From Cohaesibacter haloalkalitolerans (GTDB lineage Bacteria > Pseudomonadota > Alphaproteobacteria > Rhizobiales > Cohaesibacteraceae), in assembly GCF_003574655.1 (NCBI RefSeq), contig NZ_QNUM01000005.1:310001-374000 (forward strand): DNA of 64,000 nt, written 5' to 3'. The translations under genes and the position numbers were made by a program. Below, one piece after another: positions 51,169 to 64,000 of the stretch (the stretch's first letter is position 1; every line of letters begins with the position of its first letter). The notes below the pieces were generated by a model. The model was not told the DNA's origin, searched no databases, and worked only from the letters and a program-made list of their open reading frames with translations.

Positions 51169-51507
51169 ATGAATTTTCGTATTGATGGCCAGAAGGTCCG
51201 GTTCCGGATCGACAAGTCTGAACTGGAATGCCTGTGCAACGGGACGAGTGTCATCCAGGCAACATGCCTGTCCGAGGGTCAGATTCTTGGTGCCGTTATC
51301 GAGCCCGCCGAAATGGCACCGGTGCTATCCTTGAGTTGGGACAATCAAACTCTGCGGCTTGCTGCCAACATCGGTGACTTGCATGCATTGCGGGATGCGT
51401 TGCCTCAGCGCGAGGGCCTCAAGCAGAAGACCTCAATCAATGATGAGGTTTCTCTTGATCTCAGCCTGGAAGTTGATATTCGCACTCAGAACCGCAAGCG
51501 GGACTGA
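51169..51507 (+). CDS. Small conserved protein (DUF7009-like)
   Basis: 112 residues, ATG with AAAGGA upstream. The start MNFRIDGQKVRFRIDKSELE (short strand then a helix) and the following LGAVIEPAEMAPVLSLSWDN and LRLAANIGDLHALRDALPQR resemble a family of 110-130-residue cytoplasmic proteins I recall as DUF7009. Function unknown. It is isolated between tRNA-Ser and the PIG-L gene. Confidence 0.6.
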   Translation: MNFRIDGQKVRFRIDKSELECLCNGTSVIQATCLSEGQILGAVIEPAEMAPVLSLSWDNQTLRLAANIGDLHALRDALPQREGLKQKTSINDEVSLDLSLEVDIRTQNRKRD

Positions 51508-51793: not shown

Positions 51794-54196
51794 TCAGGCT
51801 TTTTGCAACAGGTTGGCCATCAGGCGGAATGCGCCGGGCACCAGTTTGTCCATCTGGTGGTGCAGGACGAGACTGGTGTGGGTGTGTCTTCCTTTGCCGA
51901 TTCTGGCCGAAACCAGAGCACCGGTAAGCGCGTCTTCATTGGCATCATGGAGAGAGAGCAGGGGCTCATATGCCTCTTCCCATCGGGAGGCGAAATAGAG
52001 CCCGCGCTCCTTATCCCAGCCATCCCAATCCTCAGGGCCAATTCGATTGGGGCCGACAAGGAGCGGATGCTCGCTGTTCAACACCGTGACTTTAGCCGTC
52101 GGGTCGGTAACACGCCACCGAAGGGACGGCGAGCCTATCTGAAGAAACCGGGGAGGGGTCTTTTCGGGATTCCAGCCATCCGATGGCCGATGATAGAGCG
52201 TGACAAGATGACCGCCTTCTTCCACGAACGTGCGAATCCTGTCGGTCGATGCCGCGAGATCCTTGCGCAACCCGAAGGCAAATAGGCCTATAAGGATCGT
52301 GGTGAAGCGGGATAGATCACCTGACAACGCCGAAGCGTCGAGATCTTCGTATGGAACGCCCATTCTGCCGAGCCAAAGGGCGACATTATCGGCTCCCCCG
52401 CCAACATAGCCGACATGGATGTCTTCTGGCAGTTGGAGATCAAGGCAGAGAATATCCAGAGCCACAGGCTTGATATGCCGCCCCTTGCCGATATGGGGGT
52501 AGCTGAAGTCAGTGACGGATGAGGCCGGTTCGCCATCGATGAGAGGAACAATGCTGATGCGCCCAGCCTTGGGCTGTGAAGGTGCGATGACCTTTTTGCC
52601 CGCGCCATTCTGTTGAATGTCCCAACCATCCGGCGCTGAGAAACTCAAGCTTGCGTCATCACAGGTGGATTGGACCTTGAACAGCAATTTGTCGGTCGGT
52701 TGACCTATGGGCAGTAGAAAGGCTGGAGGTTCGATTTCAAGGGAATGGGCCGGAATGACTGGCAAATCACATTCCAGATCGAATGCCTTTGTGGCTGGCT
52801 GGCCGCCAATAGTCGCAGTCATGGTGATAAAGGCGGCGCCATTGCCTTCCAGAGATGACCACTTGGGCGGGTATTGCAAGGACAGGGGCGCATCCCGCTG
52901 GGCGGACAGGGTGTAGCGGAGCAAACCGTCTTCGCGGCTCATCAACTGGGCTTTTACCCCCTGCGGCAAGGTGAGGGAAACCTCGGGCTCAGCGGACAAG
53001 CCTTGTGGCAGGACGATGGTAAGGTCTGTTGAGCCACCCTGTGTCAGGGCGTCGCCTTGTGCGTAGGCCCGCTCGAAAAGCGCATCGGTTTCAAACAGCG
53101 CAACATCGATTTCAACGAGCTTGCGTTGCAGTCGATGCTGGTGGAGGTCGAGGAAGGTTTGTGGCGCGCAGTCAAGCGCTGCAACCATTGCCTCTTTTGC
53201 GGAAACAAGAGAGCGGCAGATTGCAGTGCGATCCGGGAAGGCATCAACGGCATTGCTGATCGCCTCGTCTGCTGATTTTAACAATGATGAGAGTTTCCCC
53301 TCCGCCGACTGTCCCGCGCAAAGAGCAGTCAGCGATGTGGGGAGTTCGTCAGAAATGGTGGATTCCGGGTGTGACCCTGAAGGCCCATGCAGCAAATGGA
53401 GTTGCCAGCGGCTGGCGGGGCGGTCTGGCCAGACGCCCATGCCCTGAGAGGCATGATAATAGCGCGACCATTCCCCCAAGCGCCCAAAAGCTGCTCCGGT
53501 TGGCAAATCAACGCCGGTTGCGTCAATCGTCAAGGTCGCCGGAGGCGGCGGCACCGTATCGTCATAGGTTCCGCCGCCGCCAGACCAGGCTGGCAGATAG
53601 AATTTCGCAACGCGCCAGGGTTTGAGACCTTCCTCAAAATGCTCCGGATAGGCCGTTTCATCGGCGGCGAGCGCCAGCGCGGTTTCCGCAGCGCGCGTCA
53701 TCGCCCTGTGGTGGCCATGCTGGCCCGGGACGTCAAGAAAGGTCGGCAGCACGATGTCGGGACGTTCTTCGCGATAGGCCCTGACCATCCGCTCGACGAT
53801 GCGCTCTTCACCCCAATGGGCAAATGTGCCATCGCCGTCTTTTGAAAAGCCGAAGTCATGCACCGGGTCGTCCGGTCCGTGGCCGAGCCAATAGATATCT
53901 GCATCAAGAACTTGTGCCGCCTTTTGCATCTCCAATGTCCGCAACACGCCCAAAGCGCCGAGGCGCTCAGGCCCCAGAATACTCTGGCCCCCTTCGCCGC
54001 GCGTGGAACACCCGACAATGACCCGCATGCCCAGCTTGAGGCTCAGATGGGCCAGAAGGCCTGATTGCTCGTCATCGGGGTGAGCCCCCGTATTCATGAG
54101 AGTCACTAAGGACTTCAACCGCGTCAGAGCCCGATAAAGAGAGGTCAGTTTGGGTGACGTCATCTGGTGTTCAATTCTTTGGCGCGGCGTAAGCAT
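51794..54196 (-). CDS. Large PIG-L family deacetylase
   Basis: 800 residues from ATG 54196, with AAGGA 9 bases upstream; the frame is open to 54364 without support. Residues 30-260 are the PIG-L/LmbE zinc hydrolase domain: GAHPDDEQSG with His39-Asp41-Asp42, STRGEGGQ, and the third-ligand region DVPGQHGHHRA (His160, His162, His163). PIG-L enzymes remove acetyl from N-acetylglucosamine conjugates. The remaining 500 residues contain beta-rich segments and, near residues 580-700, a Rossmann-like ThuA/glutamine-amidotransferase-type part (VGYVGGGADNVALWLGRMG, FVEEGGHLVTLYHRPSDGW). No signal peptide. It follows the ROK gene by 19 bases. Confidence 0.88.
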   Translation of the reverse strand: MLTPRQRIEHQMTSPKLTSLYRALTRLKSLVTLMNTGAHPDDEQSGLLAHLSLKLGMRVIVGCSTRGEGGQSILGPERLGALGVLRTLEMQKAAQVLDADIYWLGHGPDDPVHDFGFSKDGDGTFAHWGEERIVERMVRAYREERPDIVLPTFLDVPGQHGHHRAMTRAAETALALAADETAYPEHFEEGLKPWRVAKFYLPAWSGGGGTYDDTVPPPPATLTIDATGVDLPTGAAFGRLGEWSRYYHASQGMGVWPDRPASRWQLHLLHGPSGSHPESTISDELPTSLTALCAGQSAEGKLSSLLKSADEAISNAVDAFPDRTAICRSLVSAKEAMVAALDCAPQTFLDLHQHRLQRKLVEIDVALFETDALFERAYAQGDALTQGGSTDLTIVLPQGLSAEPEVSLTLPQGVKAQLMSREDGLLRYTLSAQRDAPLSLQYPPKWSSLEGNGAAFITMTATIGGQPATKAFDLECDLPVIPAHSLEIEPPAFLLPIGQPTDKLLFKVQSTCDDASLSFSAPDGWDIQQNGAGKKVIAPSQPKAGRISIVPLIDGEPASSVTDFSYPHIGKGRHIKPVALDILCLDLQLPEDIHVGYVGGGADNVALWLGRMGVPYEDLDASALSGDLSRFTTILIGLFAFGLRKDLAASTDRIRTFVEEGGHLVTLYHRPSDGWNPEKTPPRFLQIGSPSLRWRVTDPTAKVTVLNSEHPLLVGPNRIGPEDWDGWDKERGLYFASRWEEAYEPLLSLHDANEDALTGALVSARIGKGRHTHTSLVLHHQMDKLVPGAFRLMANLLQKA

Positions 54197-54215
54197 GCAA
54201 ACAAGTCCTTGGTTG

Positions 54216-55433
54216 TCAGGCAACCTGTTGGTCAGGTGATGACGTTTCAAGCTTTGGGGTGAGGATTTCAAACAGTGGCAGGGCGGCCGCGCCAAGAGCT
54301 GCGGTAAATTGCCCGGTCTGTCCACGCATGACGCGTGGCAAGGTGCGCATGCGCCGACCAGCAACCGAGCGCGGCAATGCCTTCATGCGCTCAAGAAGAG
54401 CGTCAAAAATCTGGTCGGACAGGATCCCGCCGACGATCAGCGTTTCCGGGTCGAGAATGTTTTCAAGCAACCCGACGATCGTGGTCAGATGCAGCGAGGC
54501 TTCATCGAGCCATTCCAGAATGACCGGGTCATTCGCTTCAAGCAGCGCTTCAAGCGCGTCAATATCAGGACGCAGGCGACCGACCGCCTCGAATTTCTCG
54601 TATAACGCATGCAAGGAGGCGTAGCGTTCCAGACATCCTTTCTGTCCGCATGGGCACGCACGGCCATTGGGAACCGCCAGCACATGGCCAATTTCGCCAG
54701 CGTTGCCGAAGGCTCCGCGGTAGGGAAGGCCATCCTGAATCATCCCCAGCCCGATGCCGGTGCCAAAATAGATCATGCCGAAATGCGAGACCTTGTGCCC
54801 GGCTCCGAAAAGGCGCTCGGCCACGGCTGCTGCCGAGGCATCGTTTTCCAGAGTGACGCTGGCGCCGCAGGCCTTCTCCAGCGCGTCTTTGACATTCATG
54901 TTGCTCCAGCCGGGCAGGGTGGTTGGGCCAACAGAGCTCATGCCGTCAATGTCAAACGGACCGGGCATGACAACGCCCACTCCAAGCAGGGGCGAGGCAA
55001 AGGACTGTCTTGCGCGGTCCGTTTCGGCCTTGAAAATGGGGAGACATTTTTCCGGTGTCGTATCGGTGAGCGGAATGATCCGCTTGTAGCGAAGGTCGCC
55101 AGTCAGATCCAACACCGTCGTGGCCATCTGGTCGGTTGCGATCTCGACACCAATGGTCGCTGCCCCTTCAGGGTTGATGGCAAACTGGACAGGCGGCTGG
55201 CCTCGGCTGGTGCGGCGGCGTCCGGTGTTTTTGACCAGATTGGCCTCGACCAGTTCCTCCACGATATTGGCGACAGCCTGTGCGGTCAGATGGGTGCGCC
55301 GGGCAATCTCCATGCGCCCCAGACTGCCATGCTGGCGAATGATGTCCAGCACGACACGTCGATTGTGCTCCCGGCTTCTCTCAGGGTTGTTGCCAATCGC
55401 GAAATGGGTCGCAGCGCGTGGTTTCTTGGTCAT
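54216..55433 (-). CDS. ROK-family transcriptional repressor
   Basis: 405 residues from ATG 55433 (GGGA upstream). An N-terminal winged helix (SREHNRRVVLDIIRQHGSLG, EIARRTHLTAQAVANIVEEL) is followed by a ROK sugar-kinase-like fold with LGVGVVMPGPFDIDG, the zinc motif CPCGQKGCLERYASL, and IYFGTGIGLGMIQDG. NagC/Mlc/XylR-type regulators sense a sugar or its phosphate. Divergent from the ABC operon and first gene ahead of the PIG-L gene; likely the local regulator. Confidence 0.93.
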   Translation of the reverse strand: MTKKPRAATHFAIGNNPERSREHNRRVVLDIIRQHGSLGRMEIARRTHLTAQAVANIVEELVEANLVKNTGRRRTSRGQPPVQFAINPEGAATIGVEIATDQMATTVLDLTGDLRYKRIIPLTDTTPEKCLPIFKAETDRARQSFASPLLGVGVVMPGPFDIDGMSSVGPTTLPGWSNMNVKDALEKACGASVTLENDASAAAVAERLFGAGHKVSHFGMIYFGTGIGLGMIQDGLPYRGAFGNAGEIGHVLAVPNGRACPCGQKGCLERYASLHALYEKFEAVGRLRPDIDALEALLEANDPVILEWLDEASLHLTTIVGLLENILDPETLIVGGILSDQIFDALLERMKALPRSVAGRRMRTLPRVMRGQTGQFTAALGAAALPLFEILTPKLETSSPDQQVA

Positions 55434-55494
55434 GATTGTCCCGCTTTTCTCAGGTTTCCCAGTCTGGTGCCGATAGGCCCTACTCGTCAATACA

Positions 55495-55507
55495 TTAATT
55501 CAATTAA
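55495..55507. promoter_or_regulatory. AT-rich palindrome, possible ROK operator
   Basis: TTAATT-C-AATTAA, a perfect palindrome with a central C, 62 bases before the ROK start. A TTGACA follows at 55517-55522, pointing to the ABC operon. The location and AT-rich symmetry suit a ROK operator; binding is inferred. Confidence 0.45.
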
Positions 55508-55624
55508 ATTATCTTATTGACAAAATCCAATTGTTACGCAACGCTTAACGCAAAGGGTGGACCAGGCAATCAAAGAACCGCCCAAAAACAGAGGTGGGGC
55601 AAAATGGCTCCATACATTCAATAA

Positions 55625-55663
55625 TCAAACGTCACCATGCGGATGATGAAACCGGTGGTTTGA
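55625..55663 (+). other. Imperfect hairpin in the leader of the ABC operon
   Basis: TCAAAC (55625-55630) and CACC (55633-55636) pair with GGTG (55654-55657) and GTTTGA (55658-55663), with a 2-base bulge. It lies 60 bases before the binding-protein start. It may be a leader structure or a second operator. Confidence 0.35.
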
Positions 55664-55722
55664 TCTTTCGTGCGTTGGCAGATGACCAAGCATTTCGCCG
55701 TTAACAGGGATTGGAGTTTTCA

Positions 55723-56973
55723 ATGAAAAAAGCGCTACTGCTTGCCGGATTGCTGTCCGGTTTTAGCCTGCCTGCATTCACTGCTGCTCAGGCCGTGGAA
55801 ATTGAGTATTGGCAATATATCTATGAGACCCGCGTCAATGCCATGGATCAGCTGATCAAGAATTTTGAAGCAGCCAATCCTGACATCACCGTCAAGCAGG
55901 TCACCTTCCCATATGCCGATTATCAGACCCGTATTGTTGCCGCCAACATGGCAGGCAAAGGGCCGGATGTCATGCAGCTGTTCTACGGTTGGCTCGACAA
56001 GTTCGTTGCAGGTGGCCTGTTGCAGCCGCTTGGCAAGGAAGCCTTTCCGCACGACAAGATCGAAGCCGATTTCTTCCCGATCGTGACGGCCATGCAGCGC
56101 GATGGCGAATACTATGGGCTCCCGACGGCCGTGCGTTCACTGGCGCTGTTCTATAACAAGAAGCTGTTTGCCGATAGCGGGCTGGACCCGGCAAACCCGC
56201 CCAAGACCCTTGATGAACTTGTTGCTGCCAGCAAGGTAATCGCCAAGCATGACGATGCCGGAAACATGCTGACCGAAGGCATGACGATGGACATGAGCGG
56301 GCAGGACCATCACTGGTGGCGTGAAGTGCTTGTTCGCCAGTTCGGCGGAGAGCCCTATACGGATGACTATCGCACCGTGAAATATGATAGCGAAGCCGGT
56401 GCCAAGGCGCTGTCCTTCTATACGGATCTGCAGCTCAAGGAAAAAGTCGGCCAGATCGGCTTCATGGATGAAGGTCAGGCCGCGTTCCGCGCCGGCAAGG
56501 CCGGGATGACAATCGACGGCACCTTCCGTCTTGGTTCCTTCAAACAGATCAAGGATTTCGAATGGGGCGTTGCCGAGCTGCCAGCCAATGCTGACGGCTA
56601 TCAGTCGAACTATTCAAGCTATTTTGCCAACGGCATTGGCGCCAAGGTCAAAGGTGAAAAGCTCGAAGCGGCCGAAAAATTCCTCGCCTACGTCACCTCT
56701 CCGGAAGCCATGAAAATCTGGCTTGACGTTGTCGGTGAGCTTCCTGCCAAACGCGAAGTGGCGTTGACGGATGAAAACACGGCCAACCCGATCTATGGCC
56801 CGTTCCTCAAGGGGCTGGCCGATGCGCACACGACGCTGTTCGTGGATGAGGCTGCACAACGCCAGACCGCCATGGATATGGCCAACCGTGTGCTGATCAA
56901 TGGTCAGACGCCTGAAGAGAGCGTCGCTGAAGCTGCCAAGCAGGAACAGAAGATTATCGACGACGCGATGTAA
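55723..56973 (+). CDS. ABC transporter sugar-binding protein (family 1)
   Basis: 416 residues, ATG with GGAG upstream. Signal peptide MKKALLLAGLLSGFSLPAFT with cleavage after AQA. The mature protein is a family 1 extracellular solute-binding protein: VEIEYWQYIYETRVNAMDQL, NPDITVKQVTFPYADYQTRI, AGKGPDVMQLFYGWLDKFV, and SNYSSYFANGIGAKVKGEKL. It captures the substrate in the periplasm. First gene of the operon, divergent from the ROK gene. Confidence 0.94.
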   Translation: MKKALLLAGLLSGFSLPAFTAAQAVEIEYWQYIYETRVNAMDQLIKNFEAANPDITVKQVTFPYADYQTRIVAANMAGKGPDVMQLFYGWLDKFVAGGLLQPLGKEAFPHDKIEADFFPIVTAMQRDGEYYGLPTAVRSLALFYNKKLFADSGLDPANPPKTLDELVAASKVIAKHDDAGNMLTEGMTMDMSGQDHHWWREVLVRQFGGEPYTDDYRTVKYDSEAGAKALSFYTDLQLKEKVGQIGFMDEGQAAFRAGKAGMTIDGTFRLGSFKQIKDFEWGVAELPANADGYQSNYSSYFANGIGAKVKGEKLEAAEKFLAYVTSPEAMKIWLDVVGELPAKREVALTDENTANPIYGPFLKGLADAHTTLFVDEAAQRQTAMDMANRVLINGQTPEESVAEAAKQEQKIIDDAM

Positions 56974-56986
56974 GCGGGAAAAATCC

Positions 56987-57937
56987 ATGCCAAGCACGGT
57001 TCAGACATCCAAAGGGGCGGCGCAAGGCCGCCCCGAGGGCGGCGGTTTTACCGATCGCTTTTCGATGCGCACGAAGCGGCTATTCTGGGTCTGGACGTTT
57101 CTGGCGCTGCCTGTGCTGTTCTACTCGGTTATCCGTTTCTACCCGACGATTGATGCCTTCCGTCTTTCCCTGACGGACTGGAACCTGATGAACAAACCGA
57201 AATTCATCGGGTTTGAAAATTATGCCAAGCTCTTTTCTGACCCGAAATTCTGGCAGGTTTTCCGGAATACCTTTGCCTATCTGATCCTTGGTACGCCCAT
57301 TTCACTGCTCATTTCCTTTACGGTGGCCTTCGCGCTGGACCGGATCAGATTTGGTCATAGCTTTATCCGGGCGCTCTATTTCCTGCCGTTCCTGACGACG
57401 GCCGCAGCCATGGCGTGGGTCTGGAGATGGTTTTATCAGCCCGCTCCGATCGGGGTGATCAACGATCTTTTGTCCTCGTTCGGTCTGATGCAGCAGCCGT
57501 TTTTACGCTCGACCTCACAGGCCCTGCCGTCCATCATGGTGACCGCCATCTGGGCCGGTCTGGGCTTCCAGATCATCATTTTTATGGCTGGCCTGCGTGC
57601 CATTCCGTCAACATTCTACGAAGCGGCGCGGATCGATGGGTTAGGGGAGTGGGCAATCTTGAAAAAGATTACCTTGCCCTTGTTGAAGCCCACCACGATC
57701 TTTCTGGTCGTGATGTCATCCATCGGCTTCCTCAGGATTTTCGATCAGGTCTACAACATGACCACCAACGATCCCGGTGGCCCGCTGGGTTCGACAAAGC
57801 CGCTCGTCCTGATGATCTACCAGTCGGCATTTTCCTCCTATCAGATGGGCTACGCTGCCGCGCAAACCGTGGTTCTCTTTCTCATTCTGCTGGCGATTTC
57901 GCTTCTTCAGCTCTGGATTCTGAGGGACAAAAAATGA
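56987..57937 (+). CDS. ABC transporter permease, MalF/UgpA type
   Basis: 316 residues from ATG 56987, 13 bases after the binding-protein stop. Six helices are expected; the EAA loop is FYEAARIDGLGEWAILKKIT. N-terminal soluble part about 25 residues, then FWVWTFLALPVLFYSVIRFY. FIGFENYAKLF is a common MalF-like segment. The stop overlaps the next start (ATGA). Confidence 0.95.
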   Translation: MPSTVQTSKGAAQGRPEGGGFTDRFSMRTKRLFWVWTFLALPVLFYSVIRFYPTIDAFRLSLTDWNLMNKPKFIGFENYAKLFSDPKFWQVFRNTFAYLILGTPISLLISFTVAFALDRIRFGHSFIRALYFLPFLTTAAAMAWVWRWFYQPAPIGVINDLLSSFGLMQQPFLRSTSQALPSIMVTAIWAGLGFQIIIFMAGLRAIPSTFYEAARIDGLGEWAILKKITLPLLKPTTIFLVVMSSIGFLRIFDQVYNMTTNDPGGPLGSTKPLVLMIYQSAFSSYQMGYAAAQTVVLFLILLAISLLQLWILRDKK

Positions 57938-58791
57938 CCGATACCGACCGTCAGGAAGCGTTGTCTCGCTATCGCATCAAGATACAGCCCGGTCGCATCC
58001 TCATCTGGACGCTGCTGTTCATTGGCGGCATCGTGATGATAACGCCGCTCCTGTTCATGTTCTCCACCTCGTTGAAACCTGCGAGTGACGTCTATGATCT
58101 GCGATTGATCCCGGCCCATCCGACATTGTCCAACTATGTTGCGGTTCTGACGAGCACCGGCTTTGTGCGCTGGTTTTTCAACTCGATGCTGGTCGCGGTT
58201 TCCGTCACCTGTTCGAATGTTTTCTTTGATAGTCTCGTGGGCTATACGCTGGCCAAATTCCGGTTCCGTGGCCGCCGCTTCATCTTTCTGGCCATTCTGT
58301 CGACCTTGATGATCCCGACCGAGATGCTGGTCATTCCATGGTATCTGATGTCGGCAAATTTCGGATGGCTGGATACCTATTGGGGCATCATGTTCCCTGG
58401 CATGATGACGGGATTCGGCACATTCCTGATGCGCCAGTTCTTCGAGGGCGTGCCCGATGACTTCATGGAAGCGGCTCGGGTTGATGGCATGAACGAATTC
58501 GTCATCTGGTGGAAGATTGCCATGCCGCTCGTTGCGCCCGCACTGTCCGCCCTTGCCATCTTCACCTTCCTTGGCAACTGGACGGCCTTCTTCTGGCCGC
58601 TGATCGTTACCACATCCAGCGAGCTTTATACGCTGCCGGTGGGGCTTTCGAGTTTTGCCGTGGAAGCCGCCATCCAGTGGGAGATGATCATGACCGGTGC
58701 CGCACTGGCAACCATCCCCACATTGCTCGTATTTCTTCTCTTTCAGCGATATATCGTGCGGGGCGTCATGCTCGCCGGTGTGAAAGGCTAA
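57934..58791 (+). CDS. ABC transporter permease, MalG/UgpE type
   Basis: 285 residues, overlapping the first permease by 4 bases; the frame is open upstream but the coupled ATG at 57934 fits the family. ILIWTLLFIGGIVMITPLLF, then FSTSLKPASDVY, and the EAA loop FMEAARVDGMNEFVIWWKIA. Ends RGVMLAGVKG, typical of MalG-like permeases. Confidence 0.95.
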   Translation: MTDTDRQEALSRYRIKIQPGRILIWTLLFIGGIVMITPLLFMFSTSLKPASDVYDLRLIPAHPTLSNYVAVLTSTGFVRWFFNSMLVAVSVTCSNVFFDSLVGYTLAKFRFRGRRFIFLAILSTLMIPTEMLVIPWYLMSANFGWLDTYWGIMFPGMMTGFGTFLMRQFFEGVPDDFMEAARVDGMNEFVIWWKIAMPLVAPALSALAIFTFLGNWTAFFWPLIVTTSSELYTLPVGLSSFAVEAAIQWEMIMTGAALATIPTLLVFLLFQRYIVRGVMLAGVKG

Positions 58792-58797
58792 TACAAT

Positions 58798-60312
58798 ATG
58801 TCAGAAGAGACCAATTCTGCCAAAGACAAGAGCGTGTTTCCGGACCCTGTCTACAAGCAGACCGTTTTGAAGCCGTTGTTTGACGGCGCCAAGAACAACT
58901 TCGTCGAAGGCTTCAGAAGCATCGACAGAGCCCATCTGGTCATGCTCGCTGAGACCGGCATTCTCACGCAGGATCAGGCGGCAAGGATCGCCGATGCGCT
59001 GGTTGCCATTGACGTAGAGATTGATCCTTCGACGCTGGAGTATACCGGTGAGGTGGAAGACTATTTCTTCCTGATCGAAAAGGAACTGAAAGCCCGCTTG
59101 GGCGCAGACCTTGGCGGCAGGCTTCATACCGCCCGCTCTCGCAACGACATTGACCACACGCTGTTCAAGATCGGCTTGCGGCACCACATTGATGTCGCTC
59201 TGGACAAGGCCATTGCGCTCCATGCCCAGATGGTGGAGACAGCAAAGCGTGAGAAGGCCACGCTGATTGTGGCCTATACGCATGGGCAGCCTGCCCAGCC
59301 GACGACTTTCGGTCATTATCTGTCCGCCGCCATTGAAGTGCTAGGACGTGATATCGAAAGGCTGTTTACCGTCCGGAACACGGTCAATCTGTGTCCGATG
59401 GGAGCTGCCGCCATCACGACCACCGGGTTTCCGATTGACCGACATCGCGTGGCCAGCCTGTTGGGATTCTCGGCCCCTTTGCGCAATTCCTACAGCTGCA
59501 TCGCTGCTGTTGATTATACAACCGCATCCTATTCTGCGCTTGAGTTGCTCTTCCTGCATCTTGGCCGCCTGATCCAGGATTTTCAGGTCTGGAGCAGCTT
59601 CGAGGTTGCCCAGCTTTATGTGCCCAATGCATTGGTGCAGATTTCCTCCATCATGCCGCAAAAGCGCAATCCCGTGCCGATTGAGCATATGCGCCACCTG
59701 TCAAGCCAGACCGTGGGGCGGGCGCAGTCGGTACTGACCATGATGCATAACACGCCGTTCACCGACATGAACGACAGTGAAGGCGAAACGCAGGCGATGG
59801 GCTATCAGGCTTTTGCAACCGGCTATCGAGTGCTGGATCTGCTGACGAGCTTCATAGCTTCCGTGTCCATTAATAGCGAACGGGTAAAGTCAAACCTCGA
59901 TCGCTCCTGTATCACGATCACCGAGCTTGCCGACTCGCTCGTGCGCAGGGAGAAACTGTCGTTCCGGCAGGCGCACGAGATTGCGGCGGAAGTGGCAAAG
60001 ACGGTTGTTGCTCTTGAGGGCTCTCTTGGCAAAGACGGCTTCGCTCCGTTTGTCGCTGCTTTTAAAAAGCATGTCGGCAGAGACACCGGGCTCGATGAGG
60101 CTGCCTTTGAAGAAATCGTATCTGCCGAATATTTCGTTCACGTTCGCGATCGTTTCGGCGGCCCTGCCGAAGCCCCGCTTGGCGAGGCATTGTCCGAGTA
60201 TGAAACGCAGCGCGATGGCTTCAGGAGCGAATGGAAGAGGCAAACGCGGTTGCTTGATGAAGCGCAGCGCGATCTGGATCTCTGTTTCACCCGATTGAGG
60301 GGACATGCATAA
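58798..60312 (+). CDS. Argininosuccinate lyase-family enzyme (not the biosynthetic ArgH by context)
   Basis: 504 residues, 6 bases after the second permease. The fumarase/aspartase superfamily signatures are intact: GGRLHTARSRNDIDHT (His110 to Asp117), AYTHGQPAQPTTFGHYLS (His162), and the catalytic loop QISSIMPQKRNPVPIEHMRH with Ser283-Ser284. Where ArgH usually has RSRNDQV, this has RSRNDID, and the segment after THGQPAQP is not ArgH-like. These enzymes release fumarate from a C-N or C-O bond. Inside a sugar transporter operon it probably splits a succinyl-linked part of the imported compound. It overlaps the ATPase gene by 1 base. Confidence 0.88.
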   Translation: MSEETNSAKDKSVFPDPVYKQTVLKPLFDGAKNNFVEGFRSIDRAHLVMLAETGILTQDQAARIADALVAIDVEIDPSTLEYTGEVEDYFFLIEKELKARLGADLGGRLHTARSRNDIDHTLFKIGLRHHIDVALDKAIALHAQMVETAKREKATLIVAYTHGQPAQPTTFGHYLSAAIEVLGRDIERLFTVRNTVNLCPMGAAAITTTGFPIDRHRVASLLGFSAPLRNSYSCIAAVDYTTASYSALELLFLHLGRLIQDFQVWSSFEVAQLYVPNALVQISSIMPQKRNPVPIEHMRHLSSQTVGRAQSVLTMMHNTPFTDMNDSEGETQAMGYQAFATGYRVLDLLTSFIASVSINSERVKSNLDRSCITITELADSLVRREKLSFRQAHEIAAEVAKTVVALEGSLGKDGFAPFVAAFKKHVGRDTGLDEAAFEEIVSAEYFVHVRDRFGGPAEAPLGEALSEYETQRDGFRSEWKRQTRLLDEAQRDLDLCFTRLRGHA

Positions 60313-61352
60313 TGGCTTCCATTACACTTGAAAAACTGGTCAAGCGCTACGACAAGGTTGAAGCCGTGCATGGCATTGATCTTGAGATAGCTGACGGCGA
60401 ATTTGTTGTGCTCGTTGGCCCTTCCGGCTGTGGCAAGTCCACCACATTGCGGATGATTGCCGGTCTGGAAGAGATCTCGGGCGGCGAGCTCAGAATTGGT
60501 GATGAGATTGTCAACGAGCGGGCACCCAAGCAGCGCAATATCGCCATGGTGTTCCAGAATTATGCGATCTACCCGCACATGACCGTGCGCGAGAACATCG
60601 GCTTCGGGCTTTACACTTCCAGCCTTAGCAAGGACGAGAAGAACGCGCGGATTGAAGAAACCGGACGCATTCTCGGGCTGACCGATTATCTCGATCGACG
60701 GCCCGCGGCCTTGTCGGGCGGCCAGCGCCAACGTGTCGCCATCGGGCGCGCCATGGTGCGGAACCCATCCGCTTTCCTGTTCGATGAACCACTCTCCAAC
60801 CTCGATGCCCAGCTCCGTGCGCAAATGCGGATCGAAATCAAGAAGCTGCATCAGGATCTCAAGACGACAACGGTCTATGTCACCCACGATCAGATCGAAG
60901 CCATGACCATGGCCGACCGGATTGTCGTGATGAAGGACGGATATATCCTGCAAACGGGAACGCCGGTTGATCTTTATGAGAACCCGGCCGATGTCTTCAC
61001 GGCTCGATTCATCGGAACGCCTTCGATGAACATGATCCCCATGGCGGCCCTTGCTGGCAAAGCCGGACTTCCCGATCACGATCCCGATATTCTGGTCGGG
61101 GTCCGGCCGCACGACCTCATTGTGAATGCGCCAAAGGAAGGGGCAATCCTGACCATTTCGGGGCAAGTTGAAGCTTGCGAACCGTTGGGGCCGGAGACTA
61201 TGGTTCACATGCGAGTCGATGGGGAGCCGGTCATCGCGACCTTGCCGGGCAATGTCGCGCCACCCGTGGGCAGCATCGTTGAATGTTCGGTGGAAACCGG
61301 AAAGCTCTATCTTTTTGATGCGAAGACCGAAAAAGGCCTGGGCCGCAAATGA
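60312..61352 (+). CDS. ABC transporter ATPase, UgpC/MsmK type
   Basis: 346 residues. Walker A VLVGPSGCGKSTTLRMIAGL, Q-loop MVFQNYAIYPHMTVRENI, signature ALSGGQRQRVAIGRAMV, Walker B SAFLFDEPLSNLDAQLR, H-loop TVYVTHDQIEAMTMA. The C-terminal 100 residues form the MalK-type regulatory TOBE part (LVGVRPHDLIV). It powers the importer encoded by the three transport genes upstream; it is separated from them by the lyase gene. Confidence 0.96.
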   Translation: MASITLEKLVKRYDKVEAVHGIDLEIADGEFVVLVGPSGCGKSTTLRMIAGLEEISGGELRIGDEIVNERAPKQRNIAMVFQNYAIYPHMTVRENIGFGLYTSSLSKDEKNARIEETGRILGLTDYLDRRPAALSGGQRQRVAIGRAMVRNPSAFLFDEPLSNLDAQLRAQMRIEIKKLHQDLKTTTVYVTHDQIEAMTMADRIVVMKDGYILQTGTPVDLYENPADVFTARFIGTPSMNMIPMAALAGKAGLPDHDPDILVGVRPHDLIVNAPKEGAILTISGQVEACEPLGPETMVHMRVDGEPVIATLPGNVAPPVGSIVECSVETGKLYLFDAKTEKGLGRK

Positions 61353-62227
61353 TGACTAGAAAAGCGGATACTGGCGCAGTCCTGTGTGTCGGGCGGATCT
61401 ACTGTGACCTGATTTTCACGGGACTGGGGCGGATGCCGATACTCGGAAGAGAGGTCTTCGCCGAAGACCTCACCATGACGGCGGGCGGTGGGGCCTATAT
61501 TTCGGCAGCCCATTTTGCCGAAATCGGACGCGCAGTTTCCCTTGTCGCAAGATTGGGAACAGACGCTCTGTCGTGCGATGTCGCCGCGCAGATCGAGAGC
61601 AGGAATATCGACCAGTCCTTTCTTGAGCGGGATGCAGAGGCGGGGCCACAAATCACCGTTGCGTCAGTCATCGGGTCTGAACGCGCCTTCCTGACCAAGC
61701 GGGCGGGTCGGGCCGAACCTGCTCATCTGAACGAAGCGTTGCATTGGGACGGAGCGTGCCATCTTCATATTGCCGAATTTGCCACTCTGGCTGAAATGCC
61801 CGACCTTGTGTCGCGTGCCAAGGAGGCGGGCTTGTCCGTTTCCCTTGATCCAAGCTGGGATGACGCCCTGATCCATGCGCCCGATCTTCTGGAGCGGTGC
61901 AAAGGGGTTGATCTGTTTCTGCCAAATATGGAAGAGGCGCAAGCGATCACAGGTAAAGCGTTACCCAATGACATGCTTGATCTTCTATCCCTCCATTTCC
62001 CCAATGTCGCGCTGAAGGCTGGTGCGAACGGGGCCTATTGCCAGTCTATCGAAGGGTGTTGGAGGGAACTTGCGCAAGCTGTGCCGGTGATCGATACGAC
62101 AGGCGCCGGAGACGCCTTCAACGCCGGGTTTATTGATCAGTGGTTGCGCTCGCAGCCTCTGTCCGTCTGTCTCGCGGCAGGAGTGGCCGCAGGGAGCAGG
62201 GCCGTCCAGCAAGCCGGAGGCGCCTAA
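61349..62227 (+). CDS. PfkB-family sugar kinase
   Basis: 292 residues, overlapping the ATPase gene by 4 bases. The PfkB fold shows VGRIYCDLIFTGLGRMP at the start, TAGGGAYISAAHFAEIGRAV (sugar-binding GG motif), SLDPSWDDAL, LPNMEEAQAITGK and the ATP/catalytic motif DTTGAGDAFNAGFIDQW. Substrate could be a sugar, sugar-like or nucleoside; context points to the imported sugar moiety. Last gene of the operon, convergent with the flagellar pair. Confidence 0.92.
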   Translation: MMTRKADTGAVLCVGRIYCDLIFTGLGRMPILGREVFAEDLTMTAGGGAYISAAHFAEIGRAVSLVARLGTDALSCDVAAQIESRNIDQSFLERDAEAGPQITVASVIGSERAFLTKRAGRAEPAHLNEALHWDGACHLHIAEFATLAEMPDLVSRAKEAGLSVSLDPSWDDALIHAPDLLERCKGVDLFLPNMEEAQAITGKALPNDMLDLLSLHFPNVALKAGANGAYCQSIEGCWRELAQAVPVIDTTGAGDAFNAGFIDQWLRSQPLSVCLAAGVAAGSRAVQQAGGA

Positions 62228-62270: not shown

Positions 62271-62606
62271 TCACGGCTTTGTCGAGCTGCGGCGCTTCTT
62301 CTCGGATTCCTGCATGACGAACCGAATGACGGCTGCAACTGCCGCGTAGAGCGATTCCGGGATCTCTTCGTCAAGTTCGACAGCGCTGAGTGCCTGAGCA
62401 AGCGCTGGGTTGCCTTCGACAATGACGCCATGTTCCCGGGCAAGCTCCACAATGCGCTCTGCCGTCTTGCCCTTGCCCTTGGCCGTGACACGGGGTGCCG
62501 GGTCTTTGTCCTTGTCATATTGCAAGGCGACGGCCAGCTTCTGCTCACCAGTGGCTGGTCTGCCTTCATCGGGGATTGGGGGGAATTGGTCGTCTCTGTT
62601 GCTCAT
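62271..62606 (-). CDS. Stand-alone FlhB C-terminal domain-like protein (FhlB type)
   Basis: 111 residues. KLAVALQYDKDKDPAPRVTA, KGKTAERIVELAREHGVIVE and GNPALAQALSAVELDEEIPE match the cytoplasmic C-terminal domain of FlhB, the export switch of the flagellar secretion system. The membrane domain and the autocleaving NPTH motif are absent. Its start overlaps the fliK-like stop (ATGA). Such proteins can replace the cleaved FlhB tail in other bacteria; that role is inferred here. Confidence 0.88.
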   Translation of the reverse strand: MSNRDDQFPPIPDEGRPATGEQKLAVALQYDKDKDPAPRVTAKGKGKTAERIVELAREHGVIVEGNPALAQALSAVELDEEIPESLYAAVAAVIRFVMQESEKKRRSSTKP

Positions 62607-64000
62607 AGCCTGCGATCCAGTCGCGCGTCTTGAAAGGGCACGATATCCATGTGCCGATCAGCGGTCCCGTTCTTTTGCCGTTTGAACACAAGGCCCGCCA
62701 GCGTGAGACCTTCTTCTTCCAGCATCGCTTGCAGCAGTGGTGTGCCGTGCTGAAAGATCTCCAGTGTCTCCTCCCGTTCGGCCCCGAGTGTCAGGCGCAC
62801 GCTTTGCCCGCGCAACTGCAGCGCAGCGCTGACAGCACCAACCGGCTCCGTATCAACGGCGAAGTGGACAATCCAGCCGACACGGTCTCGCTCACCGTTT
62901 TGTGTCGCTTCGTCATTTTCCTCGTCAAAGGGACTGGTAGGGTCCTGTTGTATCGTCATCTGCACAATGGCTGTGCCGTTGGCAACAGCGACAGGAATTT
63001 CCGCGTGCAAGGTCTGAACCGCATGCCCGCCTGTGGACGCATGATCTCCTGATGCAGAGCGTAGCGAAGCGATCTGACTGAGGGTTATCCGCGCCAGTGC
63101 AGCTTCAACCGAACTCTTGATGTGCGAAAGCGCCACCTGATTGGAAGCCGAGGCAAGAAATGTCGGAAGGCGCGCGTCCTGCCCTTCGAGGGGAGCGCCC
63201 TTCAAGGGCGGAAAGTCGCGGCTGACGCTGGGTGTTGTTGGAGCGCCGGACTGAGCCTTCTGGGGAGTGGGCATATTGCCATCGTCAGGGAGCAAAGACT
63301 GCAACAGACTGAGCGCTGCCTTGAGATTGGAAGCCGGGCCGGTTTCATGCGCGCTGCTTGTTTGCTGCCCCAAAAGCCCCAGCGAGGAAATAAGCTGGCG
63401 CAGCGTTGTGTCCGCCTTGCTGCCTTCGGGCGGCCGCTCGGGTGCCAGTTGAAAGCCGAGAACCCATCGCATGGTGGCAACAAGATCGGGAGAAACGCCA
63501 GGTCTTGCTCCGCCTTCCACCTGCTCCACGAAGGCTGTGAGGTTGGCAAACAGCTCGGTGAGTGATCGCTGCTGGGTCATTGCCTGCCGTTGCAGGGCAA
63601 CCAGTGGCGCTGGAATGGGGGGCTGGCTTAGTGGCGCGGTTGCTGCTGGCCGGGCACTGTAGGGCGGGGTGGCAACAGGAGGGTCGCTTTTGACCTGAGT
63701 ATAGCCATCCGGGCGCGCCATGGTCGCTGTCGATTGAAGCGGAGAAGGTTGAGGGGCTCCGGTCGTACTTGCAGCGCCGGTGGATGACGGCGCAAGGGGC
63801 TGCCCCTGTGCTTCGCCAGAGGTCGGCATCGGTCTGATGGTCAGTTGCGGTCCCTGGGACGTCTGTGTGACCTGAACGGTTACCGGGCTTCCGGCTTTGA
63901 GCTGACTGGCCACGGCCGGATCGGCCTTTACGTCCAGAACCTGTCCCGCAAGCTGGACGCGCAATTGGGCTTCGCCTGTGGGAAGTTTCGTGATCGCCTG
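62603..64000 (-). CDS. Flagellar hook-length control (FliK) family protein (5' end outside window)
   Basis: The minus-strand frame stays open to the window edge (about 465 codons), so the true start lies beyond 64000. The N-terminal and middle parts are Pro/Gln/Ser-rich and low in complexity, as in FliK. The C-terminal Flg_hook domain is recognised by VGWIVHFAVDTEPVGAVSAA, LQLRGQSVRLTLGAEREETL and FQHGTPLLQAMLEEEGLTLA. It likely measures hook length or signals the export switch, which suits the overlapping FlhB-like gene downstream. Confidence 0.82.
   Translation of the reverse strand, partial: QAITKLPTGEAQLRVQLAGQVLDVKADPAVASQLKAGSPVTVQVTQTSQGPQLTIRPMPTSGEAQGQPLAPSSTGAASTTGAPQPSPLQSTATMARPDGYTQVKSDPPVATPPYSARPAATAPLSQPPIPAPLVALQRQAMTQQRSLTELFANLTAFVEQVEGGARPGVSPDLVATMRWVLGFQLAPERPPEGSKADTTLRQLISSLGLLGQQTSSAHETGPASNLKAALSLLQSLLPDDGNMPTPQKAQSGAPTTPSVSRDFPPLKGAPLEGQDARLPTFLASASNQVALSHIKSSVEAALARITLSQIASLRSASGDHASTGGHAVQTLHAEIPVAVANGTAIVQMTIQQDPTSPFDEENDEATQNGERDRVGWIVHFAVDTEPVGAVSAALQLRGQSVRLTLGAEREETLEIFQHGTPLLQAMLEEEGLTLAGLVFKRQKNGTADRHMDIVPFQDARLDRRL

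Follow-up and report, generated by a model that had tools for sequence, protein, structure and literature searches.

Positions 51794–62227 of a 64,000-nucleotide stretch of the Cohaesibacter haloalkalitolerans genome (contig NZ_QNUM01000005.1, positions 310,001–374,000; herein the window) carry eight genes in two divergent units, the cassette, which comprise a ROK-family regulator, a large PIG-L amidohydrolase, a four-gene sugar importer, an ArgH-superfamily lyase, and a PfkB-family kinase. The cassette likely encodes a route from an N-acyl-glucosamine conjugate to glucosamine-6-phosphate and fumarate, and there is about an even chance that it serves the breakdown of bacillithiol-type compounds. 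A first-pass annotation of the same DNA had proposed a route of import, deacylation, fumarate release, and phosphorylation for a conjugate such as one resembling N-acetylglucosamine-malate (GlcNAc-malate). This route agrees with the NagB or NagB-II genes of some units, the exchange of PfkB for ROK kinases, the distinctness of the lyase from ArgH, and the comparable gene set of Deinococcus; the compound is herein narrowed to the bacillithiol scaffold.

The genes were delimited by reading of open reading frames (ORFs) and by Pfam and NCBIfam profile scans. The minus-strand unit consists of the ROK regulator and PIG-L, and the plus-strand unit of the solute-binding protein (SBP), two permeases, the lyase, the ATPase, and PfkB:

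51794–54196, minus strand, large PIG-L amidohydrolase of 800 amino acids with an N-terminal PIG-L domain, an Ig-like middle part, and a C-terminal ThuA/class I amidotransferase-like fold.
54216–55433, minus strand, ROK-family transcriptional regulator with an N-terminal winged helix (Pfam ROK 164 bits; sub-threshold MarR/HTH matches).
55495–55515, plus strand, operator-like imperfect palindrome TTAATTCAATTAAATTATCTT between the divergent units, from motif comparison of intergenic regions.
55723–56973, plus strand, extracellular SBP of a CUT1-type importer (Pfam SBP_bac_8 140 bits; nearest solved chain 7bvt, 107 bits).
56987–57937, plus strand, MalF/UgpA-like CUT1 permease (Pfam BPD_transp_1 48 bits; UgpA 111 bits, below the cut-off of 335).
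57934–58791, plus strand, MalG/UgpE-like CUT1 permease (Pfam BPD_transp_1 74 bits; UgpE 142 bits, below the cut-off of 297).
58798–60312, plus strand, ArgH-superfamily lyase of a separate clade, the proposed glucosaminyl-malate lyase (Pfam Lyase_1 133 bits; TIGR00838 296 bits).
60312–61352, plus strand, importer ATPase of the MalK/UgpC subfamily (PRK11650 456 bits, above the cut-off of 432).
61349–62227, plus strand, PfkB-family sugar kinase, the proposed glucosamine 6-kinase (Pfam PfkB 124 bits).

Start codons were read from the sequence as ATG at 54196 (PIG-L), 55433 (ROK; the ORF tool extends this gene to a TTG at 55490, and the ATG was adopted), 55723 (SBP), and 56987 (MalF). The tight junctions described earlier are confirmed, the extremes being a 4-base overlap and a 19-base gap: ROK and PIG-L are separated by 19 bases, SBP and MalF by 13, and MalG and the lyase by 6, and overlaps of 4, 1, and 4 bases join MalF to MalG, the lyase to the ATPase, and the ATPase to PfkB. 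The neighborhood, formerly counted as seven genes, comprises eight. The SBP_bac_1/8 domain, two BPD_transp_1 permeases, and a MalK/UgpC ATPase define a CUT1 sugar ABC importer, the ligand of which could not be read from the homologues of the SBP.

Conservation was assessed in 78 named loci (numbers with the prefix L designate loci), which are the best 78 of at least 369 confirmed PIG-L matches and are biased toward near relatives; locus genes were called with score thresholds chosen for this analysis, and the plasmid loci L134–L150 and L183–L187 stand outside the locus counts. A search for the neighborhood in other genomes had been suggested, and it recovers the lyase, four importer genes, ROK regulator, and PIG-L together in 71 of the 78 loci; the regulator is present in 73. 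Within the order of the host, PIG-L relatives are found in 26 of 397 genomes (host included), one of them as a short, weak match, and among the genomes listed for the same genus, four others carry PIG-L and 13 carry none. Twenty regions taken from these 26 genomes, which partly duplicate named loci (e.g., L038/L069 and L044/L112), contain the full set in 18 instances, the exceptions being a stretch that ends early (L045) and one that begins at a contig end (L055). When class- and phylum-wide loci were anchored on the lyase (own genome excluded), a recognized PIG-L was present in 11 of 15, and a CUT1 binding protein with permeases in 12. Gene order is nearly constant across the 20 order regions and the 78 named loci, with a Cardiobacteriaceae metagenome-assembled genome (MAG; L126) bearing PIG-L at the opposite end. 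The named loci belong mainly to Hyphomicrobiales and Rhodobacterales, plus Skermanella and the Cardiobacteriaceae MAG, and part of the cassettes is plasmid-borne. Non-core neighbors (at least 150 amino acids, at most two genes from the unit) amount to 297 genes in 248 clusters, so the flanks are mostly locus-specific. Hence, the cassette is a conserved unit that also seems to be mobile as a whole.

ArgH-superfamily lyases release fumarate, and the cassette lyase displays the features of this superfamily: the SSIMPQKxNP loop, in the form SSIMPQKRNP, and the TH and SRND motifs. It passes the TIGR00838 cut-off (296.3 versus 279.5 bits), and its relatives are labeled argH in plasmid records. However, the true ArgH of the host is encoded elsewhere (contig C11) and reaches 611 bits as opposed to 296 for the cassette lyase. 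The other ArgH motifs are exchanged, with EDIHMNVE, SDRDF, and GLPLAYSKDMQED of the host ArgH replaced by EDYFFLIE, AAVDY, and NTPFTDMNDSEGE; we take these stretches to be close to the arginine moiety of the ArgH substrate. A 44-row tree unites the cassette lyases, 27 from proteobacteria and 6 from Deinococcus, in one group (support 95/91) and three ArgH proteins in another (100/93), and EDDS lyase (PDB 6g3d) also lies outside the cassette clade; owing to long branches, the join between the Deinococcus and proteobacterial lyases is less certain than 95/91 suggests. The second ArgH and the separate tree group led to rejection of a biosynthetic ArgH identity, and the position outside the clade to rejection of EDDS lyase. 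The cassette lyase thus has the family, the catalytic loop, and, by inference, the elimination chemistry in common with ArgH and EDDS lyase but differs from both in its clade, in being encoded with a sugar importer, and in coexisting with another ArgH in the host genome. It is proposed to be a glucosaminyl-malate lyase yielding fumarate and glucosamine. Two Priestia records among the lyase matches listed are aspartases. Another argH-labeled lyase, outside the cassette clade, lies amid ABC transporter genes and next to CoA transferases; it is plasmid-borne in a coral-associated Geminicoccaceae bacterium (L144:8923–10437).

PIG-L enzymes deacylate N2 of glucosamine. The cassette protein scores above the cut-off of Pfam PF02585, carries the metal-binding motifs HPDD and HxHH, and has an MshB-like predicted fold; it misses the Mca and MshB equivalog cut-offs (TIGR03446, 42.2 versus 277 bits; TIGR03445, 30.6 versus 224 bits). 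Domain, metal-site motifs, and predicted fold are shared with BshB, Bca, MshB, and Mca, whereas the length of 800 amino acids with Ig-like and ThuA-like domains and the location in a catabolic importer operon set it apart from them. The ThuA-like C-terminal fold provided no functional hint. PIG-L is proposed to remove the N-acyl group, cysteinyl or acetyl, from glucosamine-malate. BshB deacetylates GlcNAc-malate (PMC4360819), and Mca and Bca act on thiol conjugates (PMC4101496). The cassette enzyme may cleave the cysteinyl amide instead of, or besides, the acetyl group.

The identity of the sugar is indicated by the kinase slot. Among the 71 full named loci, it is occupied by PfkB in 56 and by a ROK kinase in 9, with no kinase recognized in 6. 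NagB is located directly 3′ of the kinase on the same strand in 9 of the 78 named loci, in 4 with PfkB (all Devosia) and in 5 with the ROK kinase. Paroceanicella shares this kinase–NagB arrangement (NagB at 242 bits against a cut-off of 237), Loktanella has NagB behind PIG-L, and Roseomonas encodes a NagB-II-type SIS protein (313 bits, below the cut-off of 430) behind its ROK kinase. NagB-II-type homologues near the cassette were found in 2 of the 78 named and 3 of the 15 other loci (L099, L106, L178, L179, and L180); only L106 and L179 have them in operon orientation. The glucosamine-6-phosphate endpoint is thus marked by NagB within the unit in Rhodobacterales, Skermanella, and Devosia; the unit of the window lacks it, and the host NagB is encoded elsewhere in the genome (283 bits). 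Since PfkB and ROK kinases share one slot and each is followed by NagB in some loci, the kinase substrate would be glucosamine, which is probably the sugar released. Nucleoside and succinyl-adenosine substrates were rejected because of the NagB endpoint. Catabolic units for GlcNAc and chitobiose combine a ROK regulator, a sugar importer, a kinase, and NagB; the cassette resembles them in regulator type, importer class, kinase, and NagB endpoint but has PIG-L and the putative fumarate lyase as its conserved enzymes. NagA is not named in the annotated regions examined, no search having been aimed at it. In a Devosia MAG, a NanE–NanK fusion (N-acetylmannosamine-6-phosphate epimerase and ROK kinase; L108:17244–18773, minus strand) neighbors a second PIG-L and genes resembling ABC ATPases.

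Bacillithiol is cysteinyl-glucosaminyl-malate. If the lyase and PIG-L act on one molecule, the fumarate-yielding group would not be on N2, and an O-linked malyl group is the simplest solution. A glucosamine acylated on N2 and bearing a fumarate-yielding group on O1 would suit both enzymes, and this arrangement is the bacillithiol scaffold, as bacillithiol and its precursors bear the malyl group on an oxygen of glucosamine (PMC4360819). The route that we infer, substrate and repressor binding included, would run as follows. The CUT1 importer would take up an N-acyl-glucosaminyl-malate conjugate, the N-acyl bond of which would be hydrolyzed by PIG-L to give glucosamine-malate and cysteine (or acetate from GlcNAc-malate). 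The lyase would then eliminate fumarate from the malyl ether, setting free glucosamine, which the PfkB or ROK kinase would convert to glucosamine-6-phosphate. Finally, NagB, encoded in the unit of some species and elsewhere in the host genome, would form fructose-6-phosphate and ammonia. No bshC match was found in the host by a search that was positive in 3 of 14 control genomes and did not include bshA; lacking such a match, the host would scavenge bacillithiol rather than make it. A more far-reaching version, to which we give slightly less than an even chance, regards bacillithiol and its N-methyl form as shared nutrients: a mobile cassette of Alphaproteobacteria and Deinococcus with a new glucosaminyl-malate lyase would undo their biosynthesis to cysteine, fumarate, and glucosamine-6-phosphate, and processing of the cysteine or N-methyl-cysteine part would fall to side genes (cysteine desulfhydrase, EamA exporter, and SolA-like oxidase).

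Both units would be governed by the ROK repressor via one operator in the divergent ROK/SBP intergenic region of 289 bases (55434–55722). An operator core derived from three regions (the window, L038, and L062) occurs with at most three mismatches in 102 of 109 such regions (0.8 expected at this tolerance from base shuffles) and perfectly in 24; the 109 regions include these three as well as duplicates and relatives, and the shuffles keep base composition only. According to column frequencies, AWTAAYTCAAGTARATTATYTTAT-like sites are the form of the shared motif, and the plain palindrome TTAATT-N-AATTAA is present in only 3 of the 109 regions. The site at 55495–55515 is the sole zero-mismatch copy in the host genome, so that the predicted operator fits a dedicated local ROK repressor. 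A second operator-like site with two mismatches is located on contig C4 at 63088–63108 (L193).

Cysteine-related genes accompany some cassettes. In 5 of the 78 named loci, all Devosia, and in the duplicate region L044, the gene of a Cds1-like L-cysteine desulfhydrase and a second PIG-L gene are divergently oriented; two of the proteins scanned at 523 and 540 bits, below the cut-off of 600. EamA follows PIG-L in 50 of the 78 loci but not in the window. A SolA-type oxidase score was obtained in three, with one protein scanned at 419 bits (cut-off 257). N-methyl-cysteine derived from N-methyl-bacillithiol would be a fitting substrate of such an oxidase, as would, alternatively, sugar amines. In L107 (12967–14412), the N-methyltryptophan oxidase (SolA)-like flavoenzyme lies between EamA and a second PIG-L, and homologues occur in L042 and L090, the latter with PIG-L instead of EamA. 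Ten proteins near second-type PIG-L genes included no further cysteine enzyme, and the “cysteine dioxygenase family” label of Roseinatronobacter S2, located after PIG-L and EamA, was unconfirmed by profile scan and absent from the other loci compared. Three genomes of a single genus combine the PIG-L/lyase pair with a peptide-type (SBP_bac_5) importer instead, which fits a pseudo-peptide substrate. In Devosia enhydra (L128:5185–16598), a second-type PIG-L is followed by an SBP_bac_5 importer and a DgaE-like pyridoxal phosphate ammonia lyase (286 bits, cut-off 600). Adjacent to the cassette in the window are a minus-strand gene for a small protein matching the C-terminal part of FlhB only (62271–62606; Pfam Bac_export_2 88 bits; flhB_rel 91 bits, below the cut-off of 117) and, just beyond PIG-L, a plus-strand gene for a DUF7009 protein (51169–51507).

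The Deinococcus-Thermus lineage makes bacillithiol (PMC6282198, PMC4360819), and of eight Deinococcus records with a lyase match, six were examined. In D. wulumuqiensis, D. ficus, and D. actinosclerus, plasmids encode a ROK protein, the lyase, a large and a small PIG-L, an SBP, two permeases, and PfkB; an ATPase is missing from the genes listed. Pfam places a PIG-L domain in the large proteins of D. ficus and D. wulumuqiensis. No large PIG-L was seen in the gene table of D. deserti (the plasmid tables are incomplete).

Several observations weigh against a bacillithiol cassette. Cysteine genes occur in few lineages, and none lies in the window. Furthermore, the first-pass annotation had held that conserved neighborhoods lacking the lyase or PIG-L would speak against its route, and a minority of this kind exists. 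The lyase and importer are found with a LacI-family regulator in Shinella and with a “substrate-binding domain” protein in the regulator place in Bosea, in both cases with no PIG-L or kinase nearby; they lie beside NAD genes without a recognized PIG-L in Terrarubrum and have no PIG-L nearby in Paroceanicella and Roseomonas. These five absences come from a plasmid scan with incomplete gene tables, chromosomes being outside its scope, that also overlooked the large PIG-L of D. ficus. Likewise, D. aetherius and Deinococcus sp. KNUC1210 list the lyase and importer only (incomplete plasmid tables), and L171, L175, L178, and L179 have the lyase and importer without a recognized PIG-L. Conversely, PIG-L relatives stand without the lyase in 5 of the 78 named loci, one of which (L074) ends at a contig end. 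Loci devoid of either enzyme may represent variants supplied with glucosaminyl-malate that has lost its acyl group beforehand; the system core may be the lyase and importer, with PIG-L dispensable when glucosamine-malate itself is imported.

Three other explanations have to be weighed against a bacillithiol cassette. The same chemistry could serve another N-acyl-glucosaminyl-malate as a nutrient, namely GlcNAc-malate, a bacillithiol S-conjugate, or N-methyl-bacillithiol, with free cysteine not being the prize. This is unlikely. In its favor, most loci are without a cysteine gene (Cds1 in 5 of 78), EamA could export a released cysteine conjugate, and the N-methyl-amino-acid-oxidase-like gene of three loci fits N-methyl-cysteine. 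The Cds1-like genes of Devosia, by contrast, point to free cysteine, and we know of no extracellular free GlcNAc-malate. The deacetylation of GlcNAc-malate by BshB (PMC4360819) and the N-methyl-bacillithiol genes held by several phyla (PMC6282198) would agree with such nutrients.

A catabolic unit for a different N-acetylated glucosamine conjugate, in which the lyase product is not fumarate, appears quite improbable. The strong alteration of several ArgH motifs and the resemblance of the binding protein to general oligosaccharide binders would be in line with it, but the SSIMPQKRNP loop, TH, and SRND motifs are retained, and to our knowledge, the known superfamily members of this branch release fumarate. 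Very unlikely, in our view, is a glucosamine with an N-linked aspartyl or succinyl group (the Heyns product that fructose forms with aspartate or asparagine) or an Amadori compound related to it, from which the lyase would cut a C–N bond and PIG-L a side amide. Argininosuccinate lyase and EDDS lyase, the nearest solved relatives of the cassette lyase, are C–N lyases, the cassette kinase weakly matches fructoselysine 6-kinase (51 bits, cut-off 247), and SolA-type oxidases are related to amadoriases. However, the nitrogen on which PIG-L enzymes act would already be taken by an N-linked succinyl group, leaving the conservation of PIG-L unexplained, and NagB implies free glucosamine-6-phosphate.

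For bacillithiol, no published route of catabolism, degradation, uptake, or import was found in the literature searched, which left out most subscription papers, and no description of the cassette gene set was found there. A related strategy is the import of glutathione as a sulfur source by Staphylococcus aureus (PMC10355420), in which a putative ABC importer likewise cooperates with an enzyme that cleaves the scavenged low-molecular-weight thiol; there, the enzyme is a γ-glutamyl transpeptidase, and the thiol is another one. It has been proposed that no low-molecular-weight thiols are more broadly distributed in biology than bacillithiol derivatives (PMC6282198). If the cassette acts on them, soil and marine bacteria would eat a common antioxidant made by other bacteria, a gene family annotated as argininosuccinate lyase would have another function, and thiol scavenging would constitute a trophic link across phyla.

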